Shown one piece after another: positions 4,303 to 51,807 of a DNA stretch of 64,000 nucleotides. How positions within the stretch are numbered: position 1 is the stretch's first letter; each line of letters starts with the position of its first letter. The notes under the pieces were generated by a model, which saw only the letters and a list, made by a program, of their open reading frames with translations, was not told the DNA's origin and made no database searches. The position numbers and the translations under genes are program-made. Source of the DNA: Thermoprotei archaeon (GTDB lineage: Archaea; Thermoproteota; Thermoprotei; Thermoproteales; B15-G16); assembly GCA_003649205.1 (NCBI GenBank), contig QMRC01000008.1:1-64000 (forward strand), read 5' to 3'.

Positions 4303-6990
4303 ATGAGGCTCAATAAGATTCGTTTTTTCCTACTGCTTTTTCTCGCCTTTATATCTGGATTACTAACATCACTCTGTACAGATATTTCACCTCCATCCTT
4401 TCGAGTTACTCAAGTCAATGCAACTCATTGGTTAGCTGAGGGATTTTACGAAATTGGAAGTGAGGTATATCTCAATGAAACTACTACTCTATCATCTAGC
4501 TATCTCACTACTTACAAAGTAAAGTATGAGACACCTATAAACACTGTTGATACATCGGTACTAAGATGTAAAATAGAGTATGGAGTGCCTACAAGTAGTG
4601 TTGGTACGGTATTGTTAGGTTATAGGCTTGAATTTGTCATCAATTATGGAGGTAACTTCACAGTACTTAACCTCTCTGTATTGGATCCAATTAAGAAGCC
4701 TAATTGGTGTGGTGCAGAGAGGATACACAAGATTAATGTAACTATTTGGGATCCATACGGGTACAACTATGTTTCTTTGGTGCTTCTGGAATTGGCTGAT
4801 GTGAGACTTATGTGGAACAAAACTGGCTTCTATGAGGTTGATGATCCATATGATAGAGTTGATCTTCTTGGAGGTAATGTAACTGGTTCAGGTGCTGTAT
4901 TGACTTTAACATTTTGGATTAAACCACATTGGAGCATTGGAGGACTAGTTGATGTATATGTGTACGCTAATGATACCTCAAATAATTTAGTATGTGAAAC
5001 TGTCTTTAGTGATGCACTGTACTTTGTAAACTGTACTAAGATAGTTAATTTGCAGTTGAAGAAGCAGTACTATGAACCTAATGAGACTGCTTGGATTTCT
5101 GGGTATGTAGTCTACAATGGTACTACAGTGGGTACTTACGACTACTTGACAATAAATGGAACTGCTGTATCTGTTTCTGAGAATGGATTCTTTAACTATA
5201 CCTTCACAGTACCATCACTAGCAGGTAACTACACATATGTTCTTGAGCTTGCTCACGGAGTTGAGAAGTACTTAATCAACATAACTGTTGCCAAGAATAG
5301 GATTGAGGTTAGGGTGCTTACGGAGTACAATGAAACGGTACCTCTCGAAGATGTAGTGGTTGAGATTAGAGATCTTGAAACGGGTGAATTAGTTAAGAGA
5401 GTGCATGGAGGTGCAGAGATAATAACTGAGATCGAGGCTGGGAGCTACACGATTACAGTCTATGTGCATGGAATTAAGTTGTTTAAAGGTAATGTCTCAG
5501 TAACAGGTGCAATTGTTGAAGTAGATGTACCTAAGTTGAAGAGAGTTATTGACTATCTCGGAAGGTTGAGACCATTCATTACAAATGCTACAGTCAAGCT
5601 GGCTCTATACGACAATGAAACGAGAAGAGCAGTATTCCTATTGAGTGGTAGTGGAGTAGTGAGGTTTGTGTACTACTGCAATGTAACGCAGTTACCGTGT
5701 ATACTATGTAATGTGACGTATCACATAGTTGAGCTAAGTAAGAAGAGGGTCATAGTAGATCTGGAGATTGGTAGCACTGCTAATGTCACAGTTATCGATC
5801 CAAGGTACTTGAAGGTAACTGTAATCAATCCATTTGGAAGAGTTTACCCACTTAACATAAAGTTGCTAAACATTACTCAGTACATAGAGATTGAGAACGC
5901 AACGACATACCTACTACCTGCAATGAATATGACAGAGCTGATTGTAGACTACAGAGGTATTGCTAAGAAGCTAGCGTTCTCACTTCTCACTGACAAGAAC
6001 GTAACCGTGATGTACCCGATAGCAGAAGTTATATGCTACAAGAACGTTACTAGGTATCTCTGGAGCAATGCAACATCTATGAAAGTACACGACATCAGCT
6101 ACAGTAAGTTCAATTGGTCTAGAGTAGAGATCCTACTGTCTGGTGAGGGTTGGGTTGCCTTAGCAGTGGATTTAGGACTTCTACCTACGAAGATAGCTGT
6201 AGAAAGCAATGTAACGTGTAATTATAGATTGAATGGTACTGTACTCTACGTATACTGTAAAACCAGCTCAACAGCTAGAATCGTTGTGGAGGATGAGTAC
6301 AAGTTAACTATCGAATTACTTGATAGACTTGGGAACTACCTACCTGTTGAAGTAACTGTGGTGATTAACGGTAGTGAGGTAAGTGGAAGGCAGATTATTG
6401 AGAGCTTTCTACCTCCAGCAATGTACGTAGTTGAGGTTCCAGTTAATGTATCTGGGTTCAACTTATACGGAATAAGTGAGGTCTGTATTGAACTAAGTGA
6501 GGACAAGGTCTTGAGGTTTGAGTATAGGGTACCGTCTAAGTTCAGAGACGTGAAGGTAGTTACAATTCGTGAAACTAACAATACAGTGATTCTGTACTTT
6601 GAGGGTTACCTCATTGACTACTATGGAAACCCAATTGTTAATAGATTGATCAATGTGTTGGTGTACGATGGAGGTAAATTGCTTACAAACTTAACAGGAT
6701 TAACAGATTCAACTGGTTACTTCACTACTGAGACTACAGAACTTGTGAAGGGTAGGAAGTACACACTTGTATTCGAGTACTCTGGAGACGACACATATGT
6801 AGAGAGTAAGTACACAACCACATGTGAGGTACCTAAGAAAGTTTCAGCACCTATACCAGCACCAACAGTTACACCGCTTGAGTACATTATCCTAGTACTC
6901 ATAGGTATAGCACTTGCACTAGCTATAGCAACTGCAGTAATAAAGCTAAGAAGGAAGGTCATTGCTATTAGGAGCTTGAGATACATCTAG
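4303..6990 (+). CDS. Large spike-like surface glycoprotein with signal peptide, Ig-like repeats, C-terminal TM and SLRYI tail
   Basis: 895 aa, ~34 N-x-S/T sequons by hand count, C-terminal TM, clear paralog of 12666-15293. Confidence 0.85.
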   Translation: MRLNKIRFFLLLFLAFISGLLTSLCTDISPPSFRVTQVNATHWLAEGFYEIGSEVYLNETTTLSSSYLTTYKVKYETPINTVDTSVLRCKIEYGVPTSSVGTVLLGYRLEFVINYGGNFTVLNLSVLDPIKKPNWCGAERIHKINVTIWDPYGYNYVSLVLLELADVRLMWNKTGFYEVDDPYDRVDLLGGNVTGSGAVLTLTFWIKPHWSIGGLVDVYVYANDTSNNLVCETVFSDALYFVNCTKIVNLQLKKQYYEPNETAWISGYVVYNGTTVGTYDYLTINGTAVSVSENGFFNYTFTVPSLAGNYTYVLELAHGVEKYLINITVAKNRIEVRVLTEYNETVPLEDVVVEIRDLETGELVKRVHGGAEIITEIEAGSYTITVYVHGIKLFKGNVSVTGAIVEVDVPKLKRVIDYLGRLRPFITNATVKLALYDNETRRAVFLLSGSGVVRFVYYCNVTQLPCILCNVTYHIVELSKKRVIVDLEIGSTANVTVIDPRYLKVTVINPFGRVYPLNIKLLNITQYIEIENATTYLLPAMNMTELIVDYRGIAKKLAFSLLTDKNVTVMYPIAEVICYKNVTRYLWSNATSMKVHDISYSKFNWSRVEILLSGEGWVALAVDLGLLPTKIAVESNVTCNYRLNGTVLYVYCKTSSTARIVVEDEYKLTIELLDRLGNYLPVEVTVVINGSEVSGRQIIESFLPPAMYVVEVPVNVSGFNLYGISEVCIELSEDKVLRFEYRVPSKFRDVKVVTIRETNNTVILYFEGYLIDYYGNPIVNRLINVLVYDGGKLLTNLTGLTDSTGYFTTETTELVKGRKYTLVFEYSGDDTYVESKYTTTCEVPKKVSAPIPAPTVTPLEYIILVLIGIALALAIATAVIKLRRKVIAIRSLRYI

Positions 6991-7004
6991 GTTTTCTGAC
7001 TACT

Positions 7005-7286
7005 TCACAGGTACTTTATCTTTCTCTTGTTTGATGCTGTTTCTTTTATGGATCTGAAGATTATTGTCATTCCGATAGTTGCACCAGTGCTCATTACTAG
7101 TGCTCTAATTATGTCGAAACCTAGGACTAACCACGTAACTAGTATCATTGCACCGAATATGATCAACATGCCGATCACTGAGTTAGCTAGTACGTCTAGG
7201 AACTCACTTATGAAGGCAAGTACTACACCAGCAACAAGACCAATACCAAATAGCAGAGCCATATCGACAATAGTCATACACAACAC
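7005..7286 (-). CDS. Small multi-TM protein, FUN14-like appearance, ends KIKYL
   Basis: Hydrophobic profile, paralogous to 7342-7623. Confidence 0.65.
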   Translation of the reverse strand: MLCMTIVDMALLFGIGLVAGVVLAFISEFLDVLANSVIGMLIIFGAMILVTWLVLGFDIIRALVMSTGATIGMTIIFRSIKETASNKRKIKYL

Positions 7287-7341: not shown

Positions 7342-7623
7342 GTGAGTGATACCATGCTTGAGGTACTTATGTTATTTGGTTTCGGTATACTGCTCGGTAT
7401 CTTCATGGGGCTACTAGCTAAGTTCATAGATGTACTCACGAAGACCGTAATTGGTTTGATTGCACTATTCACGATCTTCTTCATCATCAATTTAGCGTTT
7501 CTGAAGTTCAATGTAGTTCTTGCACTGTGTACGTCACTAGGTGAAGTTCTCGGTATATCAGCAGTAACACGCTATGGATTCAAATCGAAGACAGTAGTTG
7601 AGAGAAAGAGAGCATACTTGTAG
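7342..7623 (+). CDS. Small multi-TM protein, FUN14-like appearance, ends KRAYL
   Basis: Aligns with the divergent neighbour 7005-7286 (LLFGxGxxxGxxxxxxxxFxDVLxxxVIG). Confidence 0.65.
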   Translation: MSDTMLEVLMLFGFGILLGIFMGLLAKFIDVLTKTVIGLIALFTIFFIINLAFLKFNVVLALCTSLGEVLGISAVTRYGFKSKTVVERKRAYL

Positions 7624-7677: not shown

Positions 7678-8856
7678 ATGTCTACAGAATATGAAGGATG
7701 CTACCTTGAATGCTTTACTAATATATTCAATATTCTTAAATTATTTGTGAATAGTGATGCCATACTAGATTACGCAATTAAAAATAATGCATGTGAATGT
7801 ACTTGTATAGATGCTGTTATTAAATTCCTCTCATCTTTGATCTTATGTGCTTATGCATCTCCATGTCATACCTATAATTCTGAAGGACTACTCAGCGATG
7901 TCACAACAGCTATGACTACATTACTACACAACACCTTACAGATGCTAGTAGATGTGAAGATACCTGAACCCAAAACTCATAGAGAGGCTGTATTTTTCTT
8001 CGGTACTTTACAAAGTTTAAAAACACCAATACGGTACTACCTACCAAAGTTACTTCGTGAACATTCTACTATAGAGCAGATGTATTATGTCGTGGTTGAG
8101 AAACAAGATGAGAGGTACTGTATAGAGTCACCTGCTGAAGAAGATGGAAATGAGGAGATCCTTAAGGGTTTCATATATAGTTTTGTGGAACTTGCTTGCT
8201 TGACTAAATATCCAGTAGCGTATAGATGTGTAGATTGTTCCCATATCTTTCACTATAGTACGCTCGCTATACCACTTCTAACAGGTTCAGTAGTATACCG
8301 CACAGCATCCTTACGCTGGGAATGTAGTATCTGCCCTAATGTACTTGCTGAGGTCAAAGCAATACTTCCTTCACTCTGCCCCATTTGGGGGCTTATAGTC
8401 GCTAAATTAAGCTGTATACTATGTGAGTTTTGTTCTAAAGAACATGGTTTCGGAGGACATATACCGAGTTCATGTGTTCTCTGTCCTTGTATGCATGTTC
8501 GTGCTACACTACGTACACGAGATACATTTTACTACATGTACATACTGAGCATATTTGGTCGAGAGTACTCGTGCTCGACACCATATTACGAAGTCAAAGA
8601 TTTACTTGGTGAAATAGTTATGTGTAGAGAATGTTTTCAAAGAGCAATACTACCAGTAGATTTTTGGGTGAACTTAGTAGCTAAGATTGAGGAGTACGGT
8701 GTAGATCACGCTCTACAGTATCTAAGAGAAGTATTATCTGAGTACTTATGTGAGGAACATATGCAGTATATGGATAAGATATGTGAGGCAATACGTAAAG
8801 TCTGGTTAAATGGAGATACCTCATCTCTAATATCATCACTAAAGTACATAAGGTAA
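7678..8856 (+). CDS. Cys-rich protein with multiple CxxC metal-binding knuckles, unknown function
   Basis: 392 aa; CVDC, CSIC, CILCEFC, CVLCPC, CREC motifs. Confidence 0.7.
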   Translation: MSTEYEGCYLECFTNIFNILKLFVNSDAILDYAIKNNACECTCIDAVIKFLSSLILCAYASPCHTYNSEGLLSDVTTAMTTLLHNTLQMLVDVKIPEPKTHREAVFFFGTLQSLKTPIRYYLPKLLREHSTIEQMYYVVVEKQDERYCIESPAEEDGNEEILKGFIYSFVELACLTKYPVAYRCVDCSHIFHYSTLAIPLLTGSVVYRTASLRWECSICPNVLAEVKAILPSLCPIWGLIVAKLSCILCEFCSKEHGFGGHIPSSCVLCPCMHVRATLRTRDTFYYMYILSIFGREYSCSTPYYEVKDLLGEIVMCRECFQRAILPVDFWVNLVAKIEEYGVDHALQYLREVLSEYLCEEHMQYMDKICEAIRKVWLNGDTSSLISSLKYIR

Positions 8857-8859: not shown

Positions 8860-9393
8860 CTAGAGGTACCTCCTCTCAAGCTCATCTGCTAACCTCCTCA
8901 ATCTACTGACTAATTCTCTAATTCTCTTTCTCTCTCCTAAGAAGAGTGGTTTCCAGACATCTCTCCTAGCTTTAGCATCCCATCTAAGCGATTTCCAGTT
9001 ACCGTATGGATTAACTACTTTCTCCTCAAGACCTTCAACAAATTCTTCCTTTCCATGTATGTAGTCTAGTGGTGCTACTGGTGATCTACGTACTCTAGAT
9101 GGTGTAGTTACCTTGACCTCACCTGTTCTAGTATTTACAGTAATGTAGTACTCAAGTCTAGGTCTATCATCAGTCCAGAAATCTCTATACCAACTAAACG
9201 TAACCTTACCGTCCTTACAGACCTTAATCACATTGTAGGGAATCCTACTACAGGCTACGTCCTCACCTAGGATACTACACATCTTCTCTCCAAGAATCTT
9301 CTTAGCCTTCTCAAGAAGCTCCCTAGCCCACTCAGGAAGCTCATGCTCACAACCATAGTAGACATATACACACATAGGCATTTCCTTCGGCAT
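8860..9393 (-). CDS. Hypothetical protein ending ERRYL
   Basis: 177-aa ORF with protein-like composition, divergent to 9453. Confidence 0.65.
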   Translation of the reverse strand: MPKEMPMCVYVYYGCEHELPEWARELLEKAKKILGEKMCSILGEDVACSRIPYNVIKVCKDGKVTFSWYRDFWTDDRPRLEYYITVNTRTGEVKVTTPSRVRRSPVAPLDYIHGKEEFVEGLEEKVVNPYGNWKSLRWDAKARRDVWKPLFLGERKRIRELVSRLRRLADELERRYL

Positions 9394-11542: not shown

Positions 11543-12028
11543 GTGATGAGTGCTCGACCTGTAGTCTGTACGGTGCTCTTCTATGTTGTAGCTTCGTTAG
11601 TTGATGTTCTAGTTGTTGAGTTCATCATTAGGTCGACCTCAGCGTGGAGCATAATAAGTTACTGGCACTCAGCACTAACACTACTTCTCATAACGACTCC
11701 TGCACTCATCTCACTAGCTACTAACAGCACCAAACCACTCATACTCGGGATACTCTACTACATCACATGTGTTGAAGACCTCATGTACGCACTGTGGTGT
11801 AGCCTACTTAGACTGTGGACGTGGGATTGGGTAGACCCGTTCTTCTCGTGGTACTGGTTAGATAAGTCACCATTTGTTAGGTTGATAGCTACTGTGCTCG
11901 GTCTACCTCACGTAACGACGCTGTGTCTATACATTTCGTGTGGTGTAGCAACTGTACTGACACTACTCATTGCAAGGATTAGAGAAGTGAGTGTAGTTGG
12001 GAGCTGTGCTAAGGTACGTTACCTGTAG
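11543..12028 (+). CDS. Membrane protein ending AKVRYL
   Basis: 161 aa, ~4 TM segments, C-terminal RYL. Confidence 0.65.
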   Translation: MMSARPVVCTVLFYVVASLVDVLVVEFIIRSTSAWSIISYWHSALTLLLITTPALISLATNSTKPLILGILYYITCVEDLMYALWCSLLRLWTWDWVDPFFSWYWLDKSPFVRLIATVLGLPHVTTLCLYISCGVATVLTLLIARIREVSVVGSCAKVRYL

Positions 12029-12665: not shown

Positions 12666-15293
12666 TTAGATGTATCTCAATCTCTTGATTTCTAGTGTCT
12701 TCTTCAGTAGTAGCTTCAGTGATATGACTGTGATCACTACGATAATCAGTACCACAATCACTATGATTAGTAGTGGATACATCTCGACTACTGTCGGTGC
12801 TTTGGGTGGTGGTGATGGTGCTTTACCAACCTTGATCTCTGTACTGTATGAGGAGCTTACGTAGGTATCGTCTCCGCTAAACTCTAGTACTGCTGTTATG
12901 CTGTATCCCTTCAGTACTTCAAATGGATCTGAGGTGAAGTAACCGCTACTATCTGTAGTTGCTGTTAGATTTGCTACAGGTGTTCCATTGACTACAAGTG
13001 CTATTGTCACATTTCTATTCGGTACTGGATTACCGTAGTAGTCAAGTAACTTACCCTCAATTCGCACTAGAGCAGTAGTATTCATCTCCTGAACCACATC
13101 TACCTTAACGTCCTTAAACGCTGTCGGCACTCTGTACCACACCTTGAGCACGATATCAGAGGCATTCACCGTAATGACCCTAGTAGTTTCATTGTATCCA
13201 TCGAAGAAGCTGTAGAAGTCAAATCCATCGACATTCTTCGGCAACTTAATTACGTAGTCCTCTGGGTAGAGGTATGCTCCAATTACATTACCGCTGTACT
13301 CCGTATCATTTATGTAGACAGTAGCTGAGATAGGTACTAAGTTCCCGAGCATATCGTAGAGTTCAATTCTCAGTAAGTAGAGATCCTCTACAATGACCTC
13401 TGCCGTACTACTGAGTCTACCCTCAACTATTAAGCGATTGTCTACTAGGCTCCACGTAGCTGTTACATTCGATAGAACACCTATTCTTGTAGGTAGAGTC
13501 TGAATGTAGAGGACTACCCTAAATCCTCCCTCACCTGAGACAAGTACCTTCACTCTACTGTACGGGAACTTAGGTGACATATTCTCGTAGGTTATGCTCG
13601 CATTAGCAATAAGCTCCCTAGTCCCTCCTCTGTAGTCTATGAACTTCGTGTACGGTAGCACTACCGTTAGGTTCAAGTCCCTCAACAAGTTGATTACCTT
13701 CTTAACCTCTACATCTCTGTAGATGACCCTCACAATGGTTTCTCGCTGTGGAGGTACTGTGTAGAGTGTTGCATTGCTTAGAGTCTCCCACGTAGTTAAG
13801 TTGAGGAACTCTATAGTTGCATTGTACGGTATTCCAAATGGATTAAGTACGAGTACTCTCAGCATTCTTGGATCGAGAACAGTTACATTAGCTGTACCTG
13901 ACATATTGAGATCGAGGATTACTCTCTTACTACTTAGCTCAACAACTCTGTAGCTCACGTTACAGAGTACGTAAGGTAGCTTACTTAGGTTACAGTAGTA
14001 CACTAACCTATATGTACCGCTTCCACTCAGTATGAACTCAGCCCTCCTAGTTACGTTATCGAATACTGCTCTCACTACTGAGGCATTTGTTAGCCACGTC
14101 CTAACTCTACCTAGGTGATCAACTAGCTTCTTCATGATGGGTACTTTGATCTTGATGACTGGTTCTGTAACGCTAATGTTAATTACTCTACACCTAATAC
14201 CGTGTACATAGATGTAGACTGTCCAATTACCTCCCTCTACCTCAGTAACTATGTACTCACCTCCACGTACTCTCTTAACTACCTCTCCCGTAGTTGCATT
14301 CCTAATCTCCACAACGACATCCTCAACACGTGTAGTCTCATTAGCCTCAGTCAGTATGAGCACCTCAATTCTATTCTTGGCAACAGTTATGTTGATTAAG
14401 TACTCTCTAGCTCCGTGAACTGGCTTAATCACGTAGGTGTAGTTCCCTGCTACTGAAGGAGCATTGAAGGTGTAGTTGAAGAAACCGCTAGAGTCTACGT
14501 GCACTAGAGTTCCATTGATGTACACGTCATCTACAGCAGAGACATATGTCCCACTGTACACTACGTATCCACTAATCCACATAGTCTCATTTGGCTGTAC
14601 ATAGGTACTGCTCACAGCTAGGTTAATCACCTCAGTAGTATTTATGAAGCCTATAGCACCTACGTAGGTAGTCTCATTGACTAAGTTGTGGTACGTATCG
14701 TTGATGTACACGTAGACATCGTAGACACCAGAGATATTCCAATGCGGTACAATCTCAAACACCACAACTCCTCTACCGTACTTACCCTCAGCAGAACCCC
14801 CAACAAGACTTACCTGATTAAGTGGATCAGAAACCTCGTAGAAAGCAGTACCATTCCAAGCAATTGTAACATTCCCAAACCTCAACTCAACTAAGGTAGT
14901 GTAGTTCCAACCATGAGGATTCCAAAACGTCACATTCAACCTATGTACCTTCCCAGCACCTAAGTACACACCAGTTATAGGGTTTAAACACGTGAAGTTG
15001 AGTACCGTGAAGTTACCTCCATAAGATACATTGTATGAGAGAGAAACAGATACTAAGTAATTCGCTAGTGAAGTATCTGTAGTTACTTGAGCAGTACCCT
15101 GCACAGTACATATGCTTGTGTCAGTTGTCGTGTTTGCAGTTGCTACGTAGGTTGCATTGACACCCCATGCAGTAGCATTTATCTGATACACAACTAACTT
15201 AGCTGAAGAAGTAGTTACCTGAGCAATAGCAATAGAGGTTAGTAAACCAAGTAGAAAAAACAGTAGGGTTAAGAGAACACTTGTCTTTCTCAT
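12666..15293 (-). CDS. Large spike-like surface glycoprotein, paralog of 4303-6990, ends KRLRYI
   Basis: 875 aa, signal peptide, sequon-rich, C-terminal TM; VDHLGRVRTWLTNASVVRAVFDNVTRRAEFILSGSG aligns with VDYLGRLRPFITNATVKLALYDNETRRAVFLLSGSG. Confidence 0.85.
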   Translation of the reverse strand: MRKTSVLLTLLFFLLGLLTSIAIAQVTTSSAKLVVYQINATAWGVNATYVATANTTTDTSICTVQGTAQVTTDTSLANYLVSVSLSYNVSYGGNFTVLNFTCLNPITGVYLGAGKVHRLNVTFWNPHGWNYTTLVELRFGNVTIAWNGTAFYEVSDPLNQVSLVGGSAEGKYGRGVVVFEIVPHWNISGVYDVYVYINDTYHNLVNETTYVGAIGFINTTEVINLAVSSTYVQPNETMWISGYVVYSGTYVSAVDDVYINGTLVHVDSSGFFNYTFNAPSVAGNYTYVIKPVHGAREYLINITVAKNRIEVLILTEANETTRVEDVVVEIRNATTGEVVKRVRGGEYIVTEVEGGNWTVYIYVHGIRCRVINISVTEPVIKIKVPIMKKLVDHLGRVRTWLTNASVVRAVFDNVTRRAEFILSGSGTYRLVYYCNLSKLPYVLCNVSYRVVELSSKRVILDLNMSGTANVTVLDPRMLRVLVLNPFGIPYNATIEFLNLTTWETLSNATLYTVPPQRETIVRVIYRDVEVKKVINLLRDLNLTVVLPYTKFIDYRGGTRELIANASITYENMSPKFPYSRVKVLVSGEGGFRVVLYIQTLPTRIGVLSNVTATWSLVDNRLIVEGRLSSTAEVIVEDLYLLRIELYDMLGNLVPISATVYINDTEYSGNVIGAYLYPEDYVIKLPKNVDGFDFYSFFDGYNETTRVITVNASDIVLKVWYRVPTAFKDVKVDVVQEMNTTALVRIEGKLLDYYGNPVPNRNVTIALVVNGTPVANLTATTDSSGYFTSDPFEVLKGYSITAVLEFSGDDTYVSSSYSTEIKVGKAPSPPPKAPTVVEMYPLLIIVIVVLIIVVITVISLKLLLKKTLEIKRLRYI

Positions 15294-16183: not shown

Positions 16184-17005
16184 CTAAATGTATTTAGTAG
16201 TTCTTACTTCTACTATCTTCTTTCGTAGCTTTGTTAGGTATATTACAACTAGCACTACTAGTGCTATGATGACTGTGATTACTATTGCTATTGTTGTAGT
16301 TGGTACTGTCTTGATCTCTATGTAGTCTCCACTTGCTGTTGCTTCACCTTCAACAATAATTGCCTCACTTGGATCTACCGTTACTTTCGTTCCAAATGGT
16401 GTAGTTAAGGTCATGTTTGCTACGTAGTAGCTAAATACTGTGTGAGTACCATTGTACGTCCTTCTCCACTTCTCTAGCGGTACACTGAATGGTTTTAGGT
16501 ATATGAAGAAGCACTTAGCTGGGTTCAGCGGTATGTTATTGTAGATGAACTCAGTTGAGTTGATGTTAGGTGACATAGCTCTAAACCTAACGCAAATCGA
16601 CTTACCGAGCATTGTTGAGTTAGCCCTAACACCTATCTTAATTGTCATGGAGACATCGATCTTGAGCGTTCCCGCTGTTGGCTCTGTAACTGAGTACGAG
16701 AAGTCTAGTACCTCTACACTAGCATTCCTATACCCTAAATCTCTTGATAAGTGTCTACTCAGTACCTCACCTAGAATCCTCCTTACACTGTACTTAACAC
16801 TGAGTACTGCTGTCTTAAATCCAAACCAGTAATTCTTCTCAGTAGCCGAGACATTACTTATCGTTACAGTACAACTGTACTTCACAATAGCGTAGTCATC
16901 ACGTACCTCAATACTACACGACAATGCATATATTCTCACACTTGAGAGCAGTAGCACAATCAAGAGCACCGTCACTAACGCAACTCTACAATTCATACAC
17001 GACAC
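16184..17005 (-). CDS. Secreted/type I membrane protein ending RTTKYI
   Basis: Signal peptide, ectodomain, C-terminal TM, basic tail. Confidence 0.75.
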   Translation of the reverse strand: MSCMNCRVALVTVLLIVLLLSSVRIYALSCSIEVRDDYAIVKYSCTVTISNVSATEKNYWFGFKTAVLSVKYSVRRILGEVLSRHLSRDLGYRNASVEVLDFSYSVTEPTAGTLKIDVSMTIKIGVRANSTMLGKSICVRFRAMSPNINSTEFIYNNIPLNPAKCFFIYLKPFSVPLEKWRRTYNGTHTVFSYYVANMTLTTPFGTKVTVDPSEAIIVEGEATASGDYIEIKTVPTTTIAIVITVIIALVVLVVIYLTKLRKKIVEVRTTKYI

Positions 17006-17070: not shown

Positions 17071-17490
17071 ATGAGAAACATGCTATCGAGGTTGTTTAGG
17101 TACTTTGTGTACTTTAGGAGGGCTCATGCAACGTACTTTGCGTTTCTCCTAGGTTTACTGAATTTCGTTGTGATTCAGTATAGGTTGCTTATTGAGTATG
17201 TTCCACTTCTTAAGAGTCTCTTCCCAAGTATGCTCTACTTCACTCTAACCTTCATAGCACTGTACGTACCGATAGCTCTTGCTCTTGGTTGGTTTGACTA
17301 TAGGAGAGGTGTAGCTAGGAAGGAGCTACACATAGCTACTACTAGTAATCCTATTACTCGTGAGTACCATCTCGTGCTGAATGCTGAGTTAATTGAGTCT
17401 ATTGCTAGGTTGCTTGAGCTTCATGGTGAACATGAGCAGGCTAGGAAGCTACGTGAAGCGTATAATCAATTTAGGAGGTTGTTTAAGTGA
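17071..17490 (+). CDS. Membrane protein, 2 TM
   Basis: 139 aa, hydrophobic segments, precedes GT gene in same direction. Confidence 0.65.
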   Translation: MRNMLSRLFRYFVYFRRAHATYFAFLLGLLNFVVIQYRLLIEYVPLLKSLFPSMLYFTLTFIALYVPIALALGWFDYRRGVARKELHIATTSNPITREYHLVLNAELIESIARLLELHGEHEQARKLREAYNQFRRLFK

Positions 17491-18617
17491 TGAGAGCACT
17501 AGTAATACACTACTCACTAAATGCATGTGGTGGAGGAGAACGAGTTTGCCTATACACGATACGGGTACTCAATGAGTTAGGGCTAGAGGTAGATCTGGTT
17601 ACAGGAGAGAGAACTTCATGGGGTAAAGTACTTGCACTAACTGATGTACCTGTTAAGGTACGTAGAGAGTTCGTAATTGTGAGGAATCCAGTTAGGAAGT
17701 TGAGTCTATACGGTAAGCTCCTCACTAACTTCAGGATACTGAACCTACGTAAGAGGTATGACATAACTGTGAACACTAACTTCGAAGCTCTACTAGTTCC
17801 AGCAGATCTAATCTACGTACACTTCCCACATGCCATATACGTGAAGGGTGAGTACGAGTACTGGAGAGCATTTGGAAAGTACTACAGATCACCACTGTGG
17901 AGACTGTACTTCGAACCGTATAAGGTAGGTATGGAGTTTCTCAGTAGTGAAGTTAAGCGATGTCTCATGGTTACGAACTCAAGCTTTACAGCAGAGCAGA
18001 TACGTAAGTACCTAGGGGTTAACCCAATTGTTGTTCACCCTCCTGTTGCTGTAGGTAAATTCCTCAAGCTAGCAGATCGTGAGGATCGTGAGGACACTGT
18101 TGTTACGGTTGCTAGGTACTCTAGGGTTAAGAGGCTTGAGCTAGTACCACTCGTAGCATCTAGGTGTAGAGATGTAACCTTCGTAATTATTGGTTCTGCG
18201 TACTCAGATGAGAGTTATCAAGTACTTAACACATTGATGAGGTTGAGGAGGAAGCTCAATTTAAGGAACTTGAAGCTTCTCGTGAATGTTCCTGAGAAGC
18301 TGAAGCTAGGTATCTTGTCTAGAGCTAAGGTGTACCTACACACTATGGTTCGAGAACACTTCGGTATATCTGTGGTTGAGGCTATGGCATCTGGACTAGT
18401 ACCTGTAGTACATAGGTCTGGAGGTACGTGGACAGATGTACTTGACTGCGGTAGGTATGGTTTTGGTTACGAAACTATTGATGAGTGTGTTGAGGCTGTG
18501 TACAGAGCACTTGACAACTACAGCAAGCTTAGGGGTATCTGCGTAGCTAGATCACTTGAGTTTAGTGAGAGGAGATTTAAGCAGAGAATGAAGGTTATTA
18601 TAGGGAAGCTCCTATGA
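17487..18617 (+). CDS. GT4-family glycosyltransferase
   Basis: N-terminal GGGERV and C-terminal REHFGISVVEAMASGLVPVVHRSGG. Confidence 0.88.
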   Translation: MMRALVIHYSLNACGGGERVCLYTIRVLNELGLEVDLVTGERTSWGKVLALTDVPVKVRREFVIVRNPVRKLSLYGKLLTNFRILNLRKRYDITVNTNFEALLVPADLIYVHFPHAIYVKGEYEYWRAFGKYYRSPLWRLYFEPYKVGMEFLSSEVKRCLMVTNSSFTAEQIRKYLGVNPIVVHPPVAVGKFLKLADREDREDTVVTVARYSRVKRLELVPLVASRCRDVTFVIIGSAYSDESYQVLNTLMRLRRKLNLRNLKLLVNVPEKLKLGILSRAKVYLHTMVREHFGISVVEAMASGLVPVVHRSGGTWTDVLDCGRYGFGYETIDECVEAVYRALDNYSKLRGICVARSLEFSERRFKQRMKVIIGKLL

Positions 18618-19429
18618 TATCTGTGTTCATACTCGGATTCCCTAGAACAGCAACAACGTACCTATACAGGAAACTCCTTGAGAGGTTGAAGATACCATCC
18701 ATATATGAGCCATTTAATGCAGATGCAGTCTACCAAGCTGTTTGGACAGATTGTGTACTACATGATCAAGAAGGGTATGTCCCAAGTAATCTCCGACAGT
18801 TTCTACCATCTGACGTAGTTAATCTAATGATTGAGAACTCACTGTGGTTCTATGAGTGGAGTCTAGTCGATACACCACTATCCCCAATATGTGGTTTTCA
18901 CATGTGGGAACTACTGGAGAAGATAGATGCACTTGAGACACCATTCCTGATAAAGGACGTTATTGCTTGGGTTTACGCAGATAAGATAGTTGATAGGTTT
19001 CCACGAACTAAGTTCATCTTCACAGTTAAGGACTTAGATAGTGTGAAGAATGCATTTCTTGAGTGGTATAGGTACTGGTCATTCACGTCTAGATTTAGGA
19101 GATGGCTTAAGACCTTGACCTTGAGGAAAGTAGTAACGAAAGCACATAGAGTAGGACAAGCAATTACGAGACTAATTACCCCACTACCACAGACACATCC
19201 TCGAAACTTCTTCCTAGTAGGATTCTTCTACAGACACTTCAACAACTTCAACTACCCAAGGGAGAGAAGCAAGAAGACACTACTACTTATGTTGGAGACA
19301 GTGTACAGGAAGTACTGTGAAATAGTTAGTAGTGCTGAGGGTAGATCAAATGTCTATGTACTACACTTTGAAAAGAGGCTAAGTGATGAGTTAATTGAGA
19401 AAGTTATTAAGTGGATTGAGGAGTCCTAG
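18614..19429 (+). CDS. Sulfotransferase-like protein
   Basis: VFILGFPRTATTYLYRKLLE (PAPS 5'-phosphosulfate loop type motif); overlaps GT stop by 4 nt. Confidence 0.75.
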   Translation: MISVFILGFPRTATTYLYRKLLERLKIPSIYEPFNADAVYQAVWTDCVLHDQEGYVPSNLRQFLPSDVVNLMIENSLWFYEWSLVDTPLSPICGFHMWELLEKIDALETPFLIKDVIAWVYADKIVDRFPRTKFIFTVKDLDSVKNAFLEWYRYWSFTSRFRRWLKTLTLRKVVTKAHRVGQAITRLITPLPQTHPRNFFLVGFFYRHFNNFNYPRERSKKTLLLMLETVYRKYCEIVSSAEGRSNVYVLHFEKRLSDELIEKVIKWIEES

Positions 19430-19832: not shown

Positions 19833-19833
19833 G

Positions 19834-22800
19834 TCACAAATACCTCACTCTCCTAATTGTTGCTTGTTTCTTCGACAGTGCCACAATTATGCCAATTATG
19901 AGCAGTATAACTACTATGGCTAGTAGCCCTATGAATGCCATTGCTAGTGCAAATCCAGTAGATACCACAGTTACTATGTACCTCTTACTGTCATTTCTCG
20001 GGTCGAGATCTGTCACACCTATACCTACCTCAACTACTCTATCTTGTCTAGCTCTCTCAATTGGTGGGAACTTAATCCATAGATCGTTTGGAGGTACCTT
20101 AGCTGTTACTGTAACTGTGTAGTACTCTGATGTACCTAGCTTGAAGTCTGTCTTGGAAAGTGTTGCATTTATGAACGATACGTAGAGATTTGCTAAGCCG
20201 TGTATCTCATTTGTTCTGACAATAGCCTTAACCGTGATGTAGCTATTAGACGTGACTACTCTTGGAGGAGGCTTAATCACTTTAACAAGCTCGAAGTCTC
20301 TATCTATGTACAGTGTATAATTTACAACTTCATTACCAGCAACTAAGTCTAGTGGATTACTTGCATTGACAAACACATAGAGGTACGGAGTCCAAGGCAC
20401 CTTAATCGTGTAGTTCAACCAGTAGATACCTCTCTTCGTTATGTTTAGATCAAGCATCTTCTTGAATATACCGATCTTCCTCGGCTTAGGAGCAATACCG
20501 TACTTGCTAACCACAATGTCTATCTTGGTTAGGGTTTCTAGCACTCTCGTAGGTGATACAATACCTACACATACCTTTATTGCGTCTTCTGGTAGTATAG
20601 CTCCCTTAACTCTCTGTGATACTGGTTCAATAACTACGAAAACTCTAATGTCTACGAATCCCCTAATCTTCTCAACTTCACTCCACAGCTCATTATTTCT
20701 AGGATCTGTATCGTTCATGTACTTAACTATCTTGACGTGTGCTCTAACGTAGCCTCCCTCCGTCATGTTTATGCTGAACCACTTCCAGATTGGGTTCATA
20801 CCTCTCCACAAGTATATTGTCTCTGTTATGTTTCCTAGTAGGTTGAGTGGTTTGCCCTCTGCAGTGCAGTTCCACAGCTCTAGTACGTACGTTATGTTCT
20901 GTGGTGTATTTGTCCAGAAGAGTACTGTAACTAGGTGACTGATGTTGCCGAAGTAGTAGCCTAGACCCATGTGTCTCCAGATGTGGCACTCTAGAACAGC
21001 TACCTCTGGTGTGTAGAGTGGCGAGTTCTTAGGTACTACAAATACTAACCAGTAGCACTTATCCATGTGTAGTGTCCTAGTCCAGTTATACTCTCCAGCC
21101 TGTACAAATACTTTGACTGTACTGCAGTTCCTAATGTAGAAGTATGCAAAGCCTGTTCCATTTGTCCTAGTTACAGTTGATACACCTCTTGTTAGGTCAG
21201 TAACGTTAACTAGTGCTCCTTCGTAGGGTGCTGTATCGTTGTATATTACCTGTACTGCTAGTACCCACATGTATGTACAGTTTGCGAAGTGTATTGGGTA
21301 TGGCGGGTGTGTCCAGTTGCTTCCTGCTGGAGGAGGTACAAACGTTATTGACTGATTGGCAACTACCTTGGGAACTAGATATATTCTCAAGGTCATTGTC
21401 TTGTTGAAGAGGTATATCTGCCAATCAGTTACATTGTAGAATCCTTGCTTGTACACAGATACATTGTACCAGTAACCACTCCACAGACCAAATGTAGCTA
21501 CACCACTTGCATCAGTATAGTTCGATACCTTGTATCCTCCACGAGTCTTCTCAACTATTACGAGAGCACTTGGTACTGGTGAGTAATTCAGTGCATTCAC
21601 TACTTGTACGATTAACTTTGCTGGCATTACGTAGCTGTACCAAGGTAGATAGAACTCAAGCCAAATACACCTATCTAGGTATACAGTCCTATTCTCATCA
21701 AAGACCTGTGTCGTATTGTGTGGATTAACTGCATGTACATTGACTACATATGTTCTATTTGCTTGCAACCAGAATACTACGAATCCAGTACCGTTAGTAA
21801 TTCCTTGTCTAATCAATGTATTGTCGTGATAGACCTTTACCTCAGCTCCGTGAAATGGCTTACCATCCTTCCACACAACCTGTATAGCCAATGCGTAGAG
21901 TACAGTACCGTTCGGTAGCACTATGGTTGGATATGTTGCATTGCTCCCTTCTGGAGGAGGTTGTACAGTTACGTTCTCAGGTACTAGGTATACGTAGAGC
22001 CAATCAACTGTCTCATTCATGAATATAGCACCGTAGCCTGTTCTGTAACCACTCTTACTAGCCTCAACATACCAAGTCCTCATGGTCACTACCTGTATTG
22101 GAGGTGTCCAACCAGTTTCATTTGTTGTGAACGTCCTTAAGTCAGCCCTATCAGGTCTAGACCACACCTTAACGGTAGCACCTTCAATACCTGTATTAGT
22201 CACAGCATCAACTACTCTCACGTAGAGAGTAGCATTCTCACCTACTGGAGGTACTACTGTGAGTAGGAGCGGGAAGGACTTCTTATCGTAGTCATCAGAC
22301 TTCAAGTAGTTACCGACAGAAGCATCAACTACCCAAGCTTCACACAGTAACTCTACAGGTCTCTGAACTACTTGATACATCTGCTGTGCCTCAGCTATGT
22401 AGTTACCCATGTCAACTATCACAAAGGTGCTATTCACGACATGTACCTTCGTTATGTTACTCCACGACTTCACATCAATCCAATCCATCTTCGTCTCATT
22501 GAAGTACCTCAAGCTAACTCTCCACTCCACAGTGACATCCTGCTCTACATTACTGTAGACGTATATGCTGAAGTGTCTTGGAGCTGTTGCAGTAACTGAG
22601 GTACCATTGAAGTATATCTTCAACCCAGCATTGGGAGGTAGTACTGTGTAGATGATGAATGTGTAGTTCTTACAGTACTGTAGAGTACCGCCGTTAACTG
22701 GATCGAGCCACTTAGTCCTAGTTCTGGATATATAGACATAGTATGCGGTTTCATTTATTGTGTAACTACCATTGAATTCAAACATGTTACCATATCTTCT

Positions 22801-27355: not shown

Positions 27356-27727
27356 TCACCTCCTTACACGGAGAATTGTCTGGAGTAAAAGTTCAAAATT
27401 TCTAAAGGCTTGTTCCTCAAGTCTAAAGCCCATGACTACAAACTTCATGGTTGACCCATCTGGTCTATACAGCTTGATTAGTACAATTGGTGTAGGTTGT
27501 AGCCTCCTCATTAACCTATCAACACCTTTAAAGGGCTCTGGTGATATCGTTCTCTTCTCTAGGTCAACTACGTAGAACTCACCTAGTTCACTGTACGGAT
27601 CTACGTATCTAGTTATGTAGCGTCTAATGTACGGTACACCTAATCTAGCACATATCCTCCTCAAGTGCTTATCAACACCCTTACACACTGGGCACCTACC
27701 TAGGTACCACAGCTCAACCTCTAGCAC
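27356..27727 (-). CDS. Thioredoxin/glutaredoxin-like protein
   Basis: VELWYLGRCPVCKGVDKHLRRICARLGVPY, cis-Pro-like TPIVLI. Confidence 0.7.
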   Translation of the reverse strand: MLEVELWYLGRCPVCKGVDKHLRRICARLGVPYIRRYITRYVDPYSELGEFYVVDLEKRTISPEPFKGVDRLMRRLQPTPIVLIKLYRPDGSTMKFVVMGFRLEEQAFRNFELLLQTILRVRR

Positions 27728-32623: not shown

Positions 32624-33340
32624 TTAGACGTACTTCACTCTTCTAGTTGATGCTACTGACTTAGCTCCAGCCCTCATCAATATTGCTAGTGCAACTATGA
32701 ATATTATCGCAATGCCGATAGCTACAAACCAGAAGTACGTCACTGGTATGACGTAGACTAGCTGGTAGTAGCCCATGACATCGTAGTCTCTATCTACTGT
32801 GATTGTGAGTGATGGTTCTGTTAGCTCACTTGTGTCGTATGTTAGCTTCTTGAAGACTGCCTTCCTCAGTAGCTCTACCTTGTGCTCCTTCGGATATATA
32901 ATTGTCACCGTCTCAGCCATGTAGATGGTTGCATTGGTGTTTACTGTGTAGTTTAGCTTAGTTGCATTGATGCTCACTATCACGGGTATGGAGTACGTTA
33001 GGTTTGCTAGAAGCCTCACCTTGTGTAGTGTCGTTAGGTTGTACTCAACAGTACCGTTAACTATGTCACTTGGTTTGAAGGTCTTCAGTGCGTACTCACC
33101 AGTTGCTAGCGTTATAATCACTGTGAAGTCCTTGCTGGTGTCGATATCTACAACTGCCCAACCTGTTGAGTTTGTTGTTGCTTCAGCAACCTTCTTACCG
33201 TCCTGATAGACGGCGAGTGGCACACCTGCGACTGCCTCGGTCTTATTCACTACGTGGATGTACACCTTATCTGGTTCTGCAAGTGCAATTGGTACTGCGA
33301 GCACTAGTGCTATTGCTAGCAGTAGCAGTAGGTACCTCAT
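32624..33340 (-). CDS. Type I membrane protein ending RRVKYV
   Basis: Signal peptide, carboxypeptidase-regulatory-like ectodomain, C-terminal TM. Confidence 0.75.
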   Translation of the reverse strand: MRYLLLLLAIALVLAVPIALAEPDKVYIHVVNKTEAVAGVPLAVYQDGKKVAEATTNSTGWAVVDIDTSKDFTVIITLATGEYALKTFKPSDIVNGTVEYNLTTLHKVRLLANLTYSIPVIVSINATKLNYTVNTNATIYMAETVTIIYPKEHKVELLRKAVFKKLTYDTSELTEPSLTITVDRDYDVMGYYQLVYVIPVTYFWFVAIGIAIIFIVALAILMRAGAKSVASTRRVKYV

Positions 33341-34901: not shown

Positions 34902-35326
34902 AGGTACTTCACCGCTCTAACACTCACTACCTTCCTACCGTATCTGAGCTTGAACATGTCGTAGATTGCCGTTACTACCATCATAGTACCTGCTAGTATT
35001 ACACCGAACCAGAACGGTATTGTGAAGTAGTGTATGTAGAGCATTCCGTAGAGTACCATTGCCATACCTACAATACCTGAAATAGACTCAAATACGTAGT
35101 TAGCTAGTCTGTAGATGCTCTTCTCCACTGGTATAAGTGATCTACCTGTTACTGATCTAGCGACATCATCTAGAGCATCTACACTAGACAGTAGCACTAA
35201 CACAGCAAGTAGTGGTGCTTCAGGACTTGTCATGGTTGCGAAGAACATCGCAACTATGAGAAGGAACACAAAGGTGAAACCATTCAGAGCAGTAACGAGT
35301 ACCCTAGTTAGCAAGTTGATCACCAT
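34898..35326 (-). CDS. Multi-TM protein ending RAVKYL
   Basis: 142 aa, TM segments, basic C-terminal tail. Confidence 0.7.
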   Translation of the reverse strand: MVINLLTRVLVTALNGFTFVFLLIVAMFFATMTSPEAPLLAVLVLLSSVDALDDVARSVTGRSLIPVEKSIYRLANYVFESISGIVGMAMVLYGMLYIHYFTIPFWFGVILAGTMMVVTAIYDMFKLRYGRKVVSVRAVKYL

Positions 35327-35359: not shown

Positions 35360-35821
35360 TTACTCCTTGGTACCGAGCTTAGGTTTTGGTAGCTTTCCGA
35401 GGAAGAACAGTACTGCTAGTACTACGGCACCAGCTATGATTCCAGCTATGATGAGCGACTGCACGAATGTCATTAGGAGGAACTCTGTGTAGCTAGGTGT
35501 TGCATAGTGTAGTGCTAGTGGGAGGTAGCCCTTAACTGATGCACCCCACAGTATCAGTGCTAGACCGAGACCGAGCATGTAGTAGAACGGCTTAATCCTC
35601 TCGTACTTTGCTGGTAGGAACTCACCTATCATGAACCACACTGCAACTGCAAACACTGTCAACCCTGCTAGCAGTGGAGAGACCTTGAGCATTGTAACGA
35701 CTGTCAGTATGATCACTAGTACAACCATGAAGGCAATGAAGCTTAAGTACCTCCTCACTTCCGCTCTTCCTCTCCCTGCCTGCTTCGGCACTACGTAGAC
35801 TAGCTTAGCCATACTCCACAC
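35360..35821 (-). CDS. Multi-TM protein (possible virion membrane protein)
   Basis: 153 aa, ~4 TM. Confidence 0.65.
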   Translation of the reverse strand: MWSMAKLVYVVPKQAGRGRAEVRRYLSFIAFMVVLVIILTVVTMLKVSPLLAGLTVFAVAVWFMIGEFLPAKYERIKPFYYMLGLGLALILWGASVKGYLPLALHYATPSYTEFLLMTFVQSLIIAGIIAGAVVLAVLFFLGKLPKPKLGTKE

Positions 35822-35865: not shown

Positions 35866-36441
35866 TTAGAGGTACCTCTCTAAGTAACCGCAGAAACGTC
35901 TTAATCTAGCTCTCTTCACCTTCTTCTCAGTACGTATCTCGTTAATTGTTGCAACTAAGTTGTTGATGATGTGACCAAGCACTGATGCGAGTCCGTAACC
36001 TCTACTCCACATGTACCACGATACTAGAGCAAGGCTTCCGAAGTGAATTAAACCAACGAGAACTACCTTAAGTACTTCCCTTCTCCTACCTCTACTGCTC
36101 GGTACTAGCTCAAGTACACTATCTACCCAACCCCCAATGTGTAGAATAGCCCACAGCACTGCAGTTAACAAGCTGAGCCAAGGGCTCACGAGTAGTGGTA
36201 GTGCAAAGAAGACAATCTCCTCCAGTATAGGTATTGTGAATCCTGACTGAAGTGTAGTTAGTACAGGTGACTCAATTGGTACGTACCACATGTAGGTGAA
36301 CCAGTGCCTAACATCTGACCTCCTAGGTACGTACCCTATCCTCACGAATTTAATTGGGATTTGAGTCAGTACGTTAACTAACCAGTACACTATGAACCAC
36401 TTACACAGCTCAACAGCATTGAGAGAGAACACTAGAGTCAT
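35866..36441 (-). CDS. CPBP/CAAX-protease-like membrane protein, divergent, ends LERYL
   Basis: PILEEIVFFALPLL and WAILHIGG motifs in TM context. Confidence 0.6.
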   Translation of the reverse strand: MTLVFSLNAVELCKWFIVYWLVNVLTQIPIKFVRIGYVPRRSDVRHWFTYMWYVPIESPVLTTLQSGFTIPILEEIVFFALPLLVSPWLSLLTAVLWAILHIGGWVDSVLELVPSSRGRRREVLKVVLVGLIHFGSLALVSWYMWSRGYGLASVLGHIINNLVATINEIRTEKKVKRARLRRFCGYLERYL

Positions 36442-38313: not shown

Positions 38314-38652
38314 ATGGGAACTACCATGTCTTTCGATGTTGTTATCTACTCGGTTGCTGGGAGTTTAGTTGCTGGTATCTGTACTGGTATGTTCTTGAGG
38401 TACCTCACAAAGTTCATTCTACTGCTAGCTGGTTTCGTATCCTTTGTCCTTGCTGTACTTGCTTCACTAGGAATTGTTGTCGTTAGATGGGAAGCACTCT
38501 CAACACTAATCGAGAAGATTATCACAGCTCTAGGAGGTTACGCACCAGCCGTACTAACTCTAGGTGTACCATTTGCAGTTGGGTGTATTCTAGGGTACTT
38601 CATCAAGCTACCACTAACTGTAGAAAAAAGAAGGAGAATTAGATACCTTTAA
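38314..38652 (+). CDS. FUN14-like small membrane protein ending RRRIRYL
   Basis: AGSLVAGICTGMFLRYLTKFILLLAGF pattern. Confidence 0.65.
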   Translation: MGTTMSFDVVIYSVAGSLVAGICTGMFLRYLTKFILLLAGFVSFVLAVLASLGIVVVRWEALSTLIEKIITALGGYAPAVLTLGVPFAVGCILGYFIKLPLTVEKRRRIRYL

Positions 38653-49052: not shown

Positions 49053-49074
49053 TACGTAGGATTTAGCTACTTAG

Positions 49075-49593: not shown

Positions 49594-51466
49594 TATTCTC
49601 CTAAATGACTTGCTGGTACTCACTGCACCAAATGGCTTCGGGAAGACTTATGCTGTTGCTGGTGCTGTAGCTAAGTTATCCAGTATGAAGATCTTCGATA
49701 GAATATACTTCCTAGCTAATTCACAAGATGCTTGTGGATCTATTGTACAGAAGTTGAGACATCACAATGCTAAGTTAGTTATCTGGTATGAAGGTATTGA
49801 ACGTAGCTGTATGAATAAGGAACTTCTTGAAGTGGTAGAGCATTTAACTGGAGACCCATCTCTTGCATGTCTAGTATGTCCATACAGTATACTGCAACAG
49901 AGTAAGAATAGAGAAATAACTCCAGAGACCTTGGTTCGAAGGGTGTTGAAGTTCTTTGAGGAGCGTGATGTAGCTGTTATTAGGGCTAGAGATGTGAAGA
50001 TGTACTTACTACCAAATCAAGAAATCTGTGGTCACAGTGTAATTAGAGCACTTACACTAAGACCTTCTCTAGACTTTAAGATTTATCTAGAGCGACTGAA
50101 TGTAACACCGATTTTTGTGGCACCTTTCCAGCTCTTTCTAACGTACAGTACAGCACAAGTCTTCATGAAGAGTGCTGAGAGATTGAGAAAAGAGCGTAGG
50201 TACCTATTCGTATTTGATGAGGCTGATAACTTACTTCTAATGGGTAAGGTCTACACGATAGAGAAGCCAGATTTTACAGACTTTGACTACGAGATCTTGA
50301 ATAAGCTATCTCCGTCTACCTATCGTCTTAGTGCTTTCATAGATATCTATACTAAGTTATTTAACATAATTGCGGAGGGTAGGAAGGAGCTTTCTAGGTA
50401 CGATTCTAGGATTGGTGTTAGTGATATTAAGAGGCAAGTACATGAGTTACTTAGCTCAAGGACTGTTGAGCGTGTTGTTGCTGGTGTCTGTAAGCGTCTA
50501 CGTACGATACTTCTTGAGGCTTTGAAGCAGATGAAGAGGACATTTCTCTTTAGGGCTGTTGAGTCTCTAAATCCCTTCACGCTAAGATTACTTAAGAGCT
50601 ATGGTGTTCAAGAGTTTGTTAAGTACATTGACTGTGATGTTGTTCGTAGGAGAAAGGGTAGTCAGGTTGAGGAGGAGGTTACTGCTATTCGTCTTCAGAA
50701 CTTCTCAATAGTTTCCGACATGGTGTTCAGCAATGAGAAACCTATTCGTAAGAGTCAGAAGGTAGTTGTAACTGCTACGTGGTGTGATGACTTAATGCGT
50801 AGATTATTCAAGGTAGGTGCAGAGTGTGTGAGGGTTGTCCGTGCTGTACCTGATAACGTGTACTTTGGTAGATTTGTAATCTATGAAACTGGTAGTAGGG
50901 CTCTAGAATCTACAGTATATGGTAAGGGTCAGTTCACATATCGAGTACTTTACCTAATTAAGAAGGTAATAGATGTCTATGCTGAGAAGTTCGGTATGAA
51001 GCCTAGTGGTGTTCTCGTGTGGTTTATGTCTAAGAGGCAATTTAGAGCATTTCTATCAGTACTTCGAGAGAAGAGGGCTAAGATCTCGATTGAGAGCGAT
51101 GATTTAGCGAGCATTACAGTTGCTAAGGTTAAGGTGTTACTCACATACCTTGGTTCTAGGATTACCAGAGGTGTTGACCTACCTGACTACGATATCTCCA
51201 TAGTGTTAGCACCGTTTCTAAGACCTCCTAGATCCTTCGGTGCTAGATGGCTTGACTGCGACTATGCTAGAGCAATATTCGAGAGCATACAAGCAGTCAT
51301 GAGAATTGTCAGATCACCATCACCTTCTAGACCAAAGGTTGTAATGCTTGAGGATTCACTATTTAAGAGCCCATACAAGGACTATGCACCAGCATGGTTC
51401 GTAGACTTCATCAAGAGTGGAAGGAAGTTTATTGAGCTAGATCTCGTAACTGCTGTATCAATCTAG
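49559..51466 (+). CDS. SF2 helicase (XPD/DinG-like organisation)
   Basis: Walker A LTAPNGFGKTYAV, Walker B FVFDEAD, VVVTATW, SRITRGVDLPDYDISIVLAPF, QAVMRIVRSP. Confidence 0.85.
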   Translation: MVEKYIRIKTDDILLNDLLVLTAPNGFGKTYAVAGAVAKLSSMKIFDRIYFLANSQDACGSIVQKLRHHNAKLVIWYEGIERSCMNKELLEVVEHLTGDPSLACLVCPYSILQQSKNREITPETLVRRVLKFFEERDVAVIRARDVKMYLLPNQEICGHSVIRALTLRPSLDFKIYLERLNVTPIFVAPFQLFLTYSTAQVFMKSAERLRKERRYLFVFDEADNLLLMGKVYTIEKPDFTDFDYEILNKLSPSTYRLSAFIDIYTKLFNIIAEGRKELSRYDSRIGVSDIKRQVHELLSSRTVERVVAGVCKRLRTILLEALKQMKRTFLFRAVESLNPFTLRLLKSYGVQEFVKYIDCDVVRRRKGSQVEEEVTAIRLQNFSIVSDMVFSNEKPIRKSQKVVVTATWCDDLMRRLFKVGAECVRVVRAVPDNVYFGRFVIYETGSRALESTVYGKGQFTYRVLYLIKKVIDVYAEKFGMKPSGVLVWFMSKRQFRAFLSVLREKRAKISIESDDLASITVAKVKVLLTYLGSRITRGVDLPDYDISIVLAPFLRPPRSFGARWLDCDYARAIFESIQAVMRIVRSPSPSRPKVVMLEDSLFKSPYKDYAPAWFVDFIKSGRKFIELDLVTAVSI

Positions 51467-51807
51467 ACGTACTTCATTACCTCTAGCTTTGCTGATGTAC
51501 TACCTATCTTCGATCCAAGCATCATCAAACCTCCAGTAATGAAGCCGAAGCTACATACCTCCGCTATATATCTTACTTCGTACATTAGTCCTATTGCTAG
51601 TATGATCAACGTGAAGCCTGTTAGTACGTACCCTAGGACGAGAATCTTCTTCATTTCCTCTCTAACTACTTTTCTCGCTCCTGTAAGTGCTGACACTATG
51701 ATCCCTAGCCCGAGGCATGCTAGGAATGGTATAACTGTGTGGAGTAGTACTGCAAGACCTATACCAAGTACTAGAAATCCTATGAATATGTCTCTATCGA
51801 ACTTCAC
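51463..51807 (-). CDS. Multi-TM protein ending LEVMKYV
   Basis: 114 aa, TM segments. Confidence 0.65.
   Translation of the reverse strand: MKFDRDIFIGFLVLGIGLAVLLHTVIPFLACLGLGIIVSALTGARKVVREEMKKILVLGYVLTGFTLIILAIGLMYEVRYIAEVCSFGFITGGLMMLGSKIGSTSAKLEVMKYV

Follow-up and report, generated by a model that had tools for sequence, protein, structure and literature searches.

A recurrent C-terminal tripeptide on mostly unrelated membrane proteins of a large virus-like archaeal element, and the different tags on related proteins of its relatives

The first 64,000 bases (the window) of contig QMRC01000008.1, an 84,244-base contig (C8) in the 2.07 Mb genome assembly of a Thermoprotei archaeon, were analysed for the C-termini of the encoded proteins. 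Going by its sequence, the contig is treated here as a large archaeal virus-like element, named V1, that had not been sampled before. Open reading frames (ORFs) of at least 60 aa were called greedily, and transmembrane (TM) helices were assigned by hydropathy. Of the 74 ORFs in the window, 14 end in a basic-Tyr-aliphatic tripeptide, [RK]Y[LIV], directly followed by the stop codon, and 15 do so when the variant KRAYL is counted. The enrichment of this ending, the RYL tail, is beyond doubt. Our preferred explanation, to which we assign a probability of about 0.6, is that the tail serves as a short membrane-adjacent docking tag on the cytosolic or virion-interior face, read by a co-evolving, virus-encoded assembly partner.

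As host background, 35 stretches (about 0.7 Mb) from other contigs of the same genome were used. The RYL tail ended 1 of their 792 ORFs and none of the 147 with a TM helix near the C-terminus, compared to 10 of the 18 window ORFs with a TM helix in the last 60 residues. The corresponding Fisher p values were approximately 5e-15 for all ORFs and 1e-11 for those with a TM near the C-terminus. When the last 15 residues of each ORF were shuffled, a mean of 0.24 tails and a maximum of 3 resulted, against the 14 observed, and the expectation from the tripeptide's internal frequency was 0.16. With basic-Tyr-aliphatic scored as the exact C-terminus of the 34 TM ORFs, 11 were observed and 0.16 expected, and none of 400 shuffles was as strong. 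Chance and composition were ruled out by the host background together with the shuffles. A preliminary description of the window had proposed the tail, and had named an equal frequency in host membrane proteins or in shuffled sequences as evidence to the contrary; neither was found.

All the tails quoted in that description were located in the DNA where it had placed them. It had listed both KRAYL and LERYL as variants; the former is one, and the latter matches the motif exactly. The carriers are given here with strand and C-terminal residues and are referred to below by their first coordinate. They include an 895-aa surface protein with a signal and a C-terminal TM (4303-6990, +, KLRRKVIAIRSLRYI), an 875-aa surface protein (12666-15293, -, KLLLKKTLEIKRLRYI) and a giant surface protein of 1971 aa (19834-25749, -, SKKQATIRRVRYL). 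Two type-I proteins of 273 aa (16184-17005, -, TKLRKKIVEVRTTKYI) and 238 aa (32624-33340, -, ASTRRVKYV) also carry the tail. The smaller or polytopic membrane proteins are two 3-TM proteins of 93 aa (7005-7286, -, NKRKIKYL; 7342-7623, +, the variant VERKRAYL), a 161-aa 3-TM protein (11543-12028, +, GSCAKVRYL), a 142-aa 4-TM protein (34898-35326, -, RKVVSVRAVKYL), a homologue of CPBP/Rce1-like proteases (35866-36441, -, GYLERYL), a 112-aa FUN14-like 3-TM protein (38314-38652, +, EKRRRIRYL) and a 114-aa membrane protein (51463-51807, -, AKLEVMKYV). The remaining carriers are soluble, namely a 177-aa protein (8860-9393, -, ELERRYL), a 330-aa coiled-coil protein (28812-29804, -, KPAEVRYV) and a 105-aa protein resembling a winged helix-turn-helix protein (58736-59053, +, RRTKYL). 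The last had been correctly listed among the carriers, lies outside the range 4303-51807 first noted for the tail, and could owe its ending to chance. Two near-miss endings, SLKYIR (7678-8856) and FLRY (31730-32269), were also seen.

With the tails removed, blastp grouped the 15 carriers into 13 families, ruling out common ancestry for most of them, as the preliminary description had argued. The only paralogue pairs were 12666/4303, at 46-50% identity, and 7005/7342, at 30%, and both retain the tail where the rest of the protein has diverged, a point that the description had proposed to check. For the majority of membrane carriers, the end of the tail lies 13-21 residues past the last TM core, on what hydropathy and charge predict to be the interior face, so that its picture of a short linear motif on unrelated, predicted cytosol-facing tails is borne out. 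In an AlphaFold model of 34898 (pLDDT, the predicted local distance difference test, of 75) the tail is predicted to be disordered; the model had no significant fold match. The predicted structure of 28812 was of low confidence (pLDDT 49). The codons of the tail vary, with AGG, AGA, AAG, AAA and CGT for the basic residue, many different Leu, Ile and Val codons and all three stops, and the DNA downstream is unrelated among tagged genes, which lie on both strands. As codons, stops and flanking DNA all differ, the signal lies in the protein.

Three related elements were found. V2 (G078:C8, 27.8 kb, incomplete, with a close fragment G074:C85) was detected via 34898, and its kinship was established by the subtilase (35% identity, E 4e-72), the giant protein (E 1e-36), the 12666 family (E 3e-25) and local gene order. 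V3 (G021:C189, 90.6 kb) was detected via the subtilase and is linked to V1 by NrdD (E 5e-93), the ATPase at C8:75843 (E 1e-67), the giant protein (E 2e-22), 19407 (47% identity) and others. Both were taken from metagenome bins. V4 (G122:C196) is a 6 kb syntenic fragment in which the membrane proteins are too few for a code to be read. Profile comparison did not link V3 60179 to 34898, nor V3 64793 to 35360.

RYL was found at the end of no V2 membrane protein. Instead, V2 has 14 copies of RRxLR, which occur in 10 of its 14 TM proteins and in none of its 14 non-TM proteins; the background of its metagenome-assembled genome contained 5 matches in 440 ORFs and 2 in 118 TM proteins (p = 2e-10 against background TM proteins, post hoc). 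Near the C-terminus the copies read RRRALRRV, RRILRRA, RRRALRTC and RRLLRRAD. Others are placed in the giant protein, which has two within a loop joining two TMs, and in the subtilase, within its N-in tail. The motif thus tracks the predicted cytosolic face rather than the terminus. A gapped-pattern test supported it (P = 0.005); the same test gave no support for V1 or V3 by exact letters.

In V3, two codes were seen. R-x-MFK is found mainly on surface proteins (RRRRMFKLD, RRRRKQMFKLE, QKRRKMFKQT, SRKSRKMFNFS), and R-YW on small polytopic proteins (RRRRRYWDLRE, TYKYWDSRE, SNRYWTLRL, YRKYWSYRE, YMRYWRFED). Within the last 25 residues, MFK was present in 6 and YW in 5 of the 114 ORFs, compared to none of 209 in the background (p = 8e-9 against background TM proteins, post hoc). 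The 13 tagged V3 proteins (11 TM and 2 soluble) showed no mutual homology. A motif-agnostic test of tail similarity gave z = 4.9 for V1, 2.8 for V2 and 8.7 for V3, with host samples ranging from -1.6 to 1.8. Other archaeal viruses had too few tails for this test, except Sulfolobus spindle-shaped virus 1 (SSV1), for which z = 2.2 was obtained from 4 tails.

When the same proteins are followed from V1 to V2 and V3, the tags differ. The giant protein has RVRYL in V1, RRVLRK in both copies in the predicted cytosolic loop in V2, and RRRRKQMFKLE in V3. For the 12666 family the corresponding sequences are LRYI, RRVLRP (L087:1898-5161) and RKMFKQT (G021:C189, 21851-24496). The CPBP homologue ends in LERYL, RRALRRV and NRYWTLRL, respectively, and its relatives also show RRVLRYV (alongside RRALRRV) and KFVKRKW. 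Relatives of 32624 carry RRILRD and RRLLRRAD, KRVLRELN and, with weaker homology, SRKMFNFS, and the V2 orthologue of 34898 ends in RRILRRA. The S8 subtilase of the window (33396-34901, -), which has an N-terminal signal anchor and a C-terminus predicted to lie outside, lacks the RYL tail; its N-tail has no tag in V1, RRVLRD in V2 and ERRRMFK in V3. The preliminary description had held that loss of the tail in orthologues would speak against it. RYL is indeed missing from the orthologues in the two related elements, but other shared tags stand on the same faces, which is more in keeping with a signal that is read than with a fixed one. That the tags are replaced as a set provides the strongest argument for their being read at all. 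As relatives place them in loops and N-tails, a free C-terminus is not a general feature.

Under the docking explanation, a virus-encoded inner-layer or assembly protein would bind the exposed basic-Tyr-aliphatic C-terminus at a fixed short distance from the membrane. Envelope proteins of unrelated families, among them the membrane proteases that the element itself encodes, would thereby be brought together at one assembly site or in one particle. With a single partner serving many clients, an altered binding site would force the whole client set to change, and lineage-specific codes would result: RYL at the terminus, RRxLR, or the pair R-x-MFK and R-YW. Candidates for the reader are four soluble proteins whose genes adjoin the tagged cluster, namely 28141, 28812, 29791 and 27714. 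As 28812 itself ends in RYV in the window, it may be a client. Members of its family were detected, at low identity, in each of the four elements; the V3 homologue (L213:10345-11406) ends in SGRYFNIDARREEEEGGK, like the V3 RYWDLRE tag.

Two known systems are comparable. In alphaviruses, the Tyr-X-Leu motif of E2 has been proposed to bind a pocket of the capsid protein (PMC3522669, PMC12428335). The likeness is a short aromatic-aliphatic motif in the cytoplasmic tail of an envelope protein, with a proposed docking to the inner capsid that drives budding. It differs in being a motif of one spike protein of an RNA virus and not C-terminal, whereas here a dozen unrelated proteins are involved and the tags are swapped as a set. 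In Newcastle disease virus (NDV), the last ten residues of the nucleoprotein (NP) suffice to bring foreign proteins into virions via the matrix protein (PMC13316752). This paramyxovirus sequence (NDV NC30, DXD/DLD) is likewise short, C-terminal and transferable, and admits unrelated proteins through one inner-layer protein. Unlike the present case with its many natural clients, the carrier is a soluble nucleoprotein, the motif is unrelated and the transfer was engineered.

Several observations weigh against the docking explanation. No reader was found, the inner coiled-coil proteins being candidates only; no capsid protein was recognised, and the element is known here from sequence alone, as virus-like. 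Conserved membrane proteins of the window are without the tag, namely 36438 and a 153-aa 3-TM protein (35360-35821, -) that is conserved in V2 and has RRYL immediately ahead of its first TM; 30453 and 31730 lack it as well. The tag is present on the three soluble proteins 8860, 28812 and 58736. For V2 and V3, the motifs were defined only after the sequences had been read, and in a strict shuffle of exact and class patterns V2 was not significant (58/400) and V3 was borderline (21/400). Moreover, at least one published model turns the E2 tyrosine away from the pocket, so the alphavirus parallel is debated.

The main rival, which we regard as unlikely, is that the tag marks the substrates of a protease, either the element's CPBP/Rce1-like intramembrane enzyme or a different one, that trims cytosolic tails at maturation. 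CPBP enzymes process CAAX and MYXO-CTERM proteins, and myxosortase reads a C-terminal TM and basic tail (PMC11980579). Homologues were found in all four elements (window 35866-36441; L086:3748-4530; L213:15031-15603; L249:4662-5387), and the presumed catalytic residues (E-E, H, H..N) are invariant in five aligned sequences. Against PF02517 the window copy scored 21.4 bits, just below the cut-off of 22.4, and the V2 orthologue scored 25.1, above it. However, the window tag ends at the stop codon with nothing left to remove, the V2 tag is found within a loop and within an N-tail as well, the protease is itself tagged, and the window copy has Phe in place of the Arg of EExxxR. The resemblance to the CTERM signals (PGF-, PEP-, GlyGly- and MYXO-CTERM, with archaeosortase, exosortase, rhombosortase and myxosortase) lies in unrelated surface proteins sharing a C-terminal TM and basic tail, and in the case of myxosortase also in the presence of a CPBP protease. 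Five window type-I proteins show this arrangement, in which a basic cluster, predicted to be cytosolic, comes after the C-terminal TM, with tails of 13-17 aa. The CTERM signature, in contrast, precedes the TM, whereas the tags described here follow it and in the relatives also occupy loops and N-tails. No common motif ahead of the TM was found in 13 type-I proteins of the three elements, and NCBIfam CTERM models matched none of four window type-I proteins. The type-I proteins were therefore rejected as CTERM sortase substrates.

Ranked after the protease, and again improbable, is the idea that proteins with the tag are guided to a host factor or a domain of the membrane, such as a budding site or insertion or quality-control machinery, instead of a viral structural partner. 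The tagging of soluble proteins would agree with this, and since the three elements come from different hosts, the code differences could track host factors. Yet host membrane proteins are devoid of the tag, those of the V2 and V3 backgrounds likewise make no use of theirs, and V3 has two codes in one host. It is very unlikely that the tags are a topogenic by-product, in which basic residues past the last helix (the positive-inside rule) combine with drift or biased composition. All tags do lie in basic tails, but shuffling the same letters abolishes the signal, comparable host tails share no common end, and Tyr and a terminal aliphatic residue are not charge signals. Still less credit is given to docking onto the archaeal 20S proteasome, regulating or inhibiting degradation, in the manner of the HbYX motif (hydrophobic-Tyr-any; PMC12352868) of proteasome activators. 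A free C-terminus with penultimate Tyr is common to both and is present in 15 of 15 tails, but position -3, which is hydrophobic in HbYX, is Arg or Lys in 14 of the 15 (Ala in KRAYL). HbYX was rejected because of this basic residue, and the preliminary description had already noted that the tail does not match it; in addition, most carriers are membrane proteins and the relatives' motifs have no penultimate Tyr. Least probable of all is an element in the DNA or RNA that overlaps the ends of genes, or a copying of these ends by recombination. It is favoured only by the recurrence itself and by a preference for TAC at the Tyr codon (13/15), and a DNA-level element was excluded by the varied codons and flanks.

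For a few envelope proteins, individual tail motifs that bind a matrix or capsid have been described. To our knowledge, no prokaryotic virus has a dozen unrelated membrane proteins sharing one terminal tag, and we know of no related viruses that exchange a whole tag set. The peroxisomal signal PTS1 is likewise a free C-terminal tripeptide that serves as an address on unrelated proteins, but it is eukaryotic, acts on soluble cargo and differs in letters and receptor. A more far-reaching version of the docking explanation, held tentatively and with the odds somewhat against it, is a lineage-specific viral address code. One or two viral readers would define the cytosolic peptide required on all envelope proteins and membrane enzymes, and related viruses would have swapped the code as a set, keeping the assemblies of co-infecting relatives apart; V3 would have two addresses, one spike-like and one for small polytopic proteins. 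If the docking explanation is correct, the tails identify the envelope proteins of an uncultured virus from its sequence alone, offer a handle for finding the inner assembly protein, and open the selection of membrane proteins by enveloped archaeal viruses to direct tests. Recurrent lineage-specific tails are suggested as a search rule for viral dark matter.

The contig encodes PolB, NrdD, a serine resolvase, Hjc-like and Cas4-like nucleases and the subtilase, together with very large Ig/CarboxypepD-like surface proteins. Its remaining part, C8:64001-84244 (L024), has homologues in G021:C189 (the ATPase 75843, 72703 and 79956). As the ATPase matches V3, the last 20 kb belong to the element too, which is thus at least 84 kb long. 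Among 50,697 phage records, no match was found for PolB, the giant protein or the 12666 protein, and the other searched window proteins had no relatives except generic subtilase matches. No syntenic relative was obtained from IMG/VR with PolB, the subtilase, the ATPase, the V2 giant protein and the queries A1, A3, A6 and A13. A search of genome contigs with the subtilase returned only generic cellular subtilases, and the loci reached through PolB matches in relatives had no such tail. A few subtilase loci from the searches for relatives were set aside as unrelated by match strength alone, with the loci unread. RYL tails were not seen in the examined parts of Acidianus two-tailed virus (ATV), Pyrobaculum spherical virus (PSV), Sulfolobus tengchongensis spindle-shaped virus 1 (STSV1) or SSV1. 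Membership in the Bicaudaviridae, Fuselloviridae or Globuloviridae was rejected, as the PolB, giant and 12666 proteins showed no similarity in the phage records and the parts examined had no shared tails.

At the start of the contig (3-3470, -), a 1156-aa surface-protein-like frame is open, and its C-terminus lies beyond the contig. A Cas4/PD-DEXK-like nuclease (53390-54262; PF01930, E 3e-10) and a RAMP-superfamily protein (54888-55514; PF03787, E 1e-5) are encoded close together near the NrdD gene. A glutaredoxin-like protein adjoins the assembly cluster in the four elements (window 27356-27727; L086:5092-5538; L213:12420-12914; L249:2322-2756), as recognised by position and CxxC motif, with homology aligned for the window and V2 copies only. 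Near the giant surface protein, a glycosyltransferase gene and a sulfotransferase-like gene (17487-19429) are found, possibly a pair for glycan modification.

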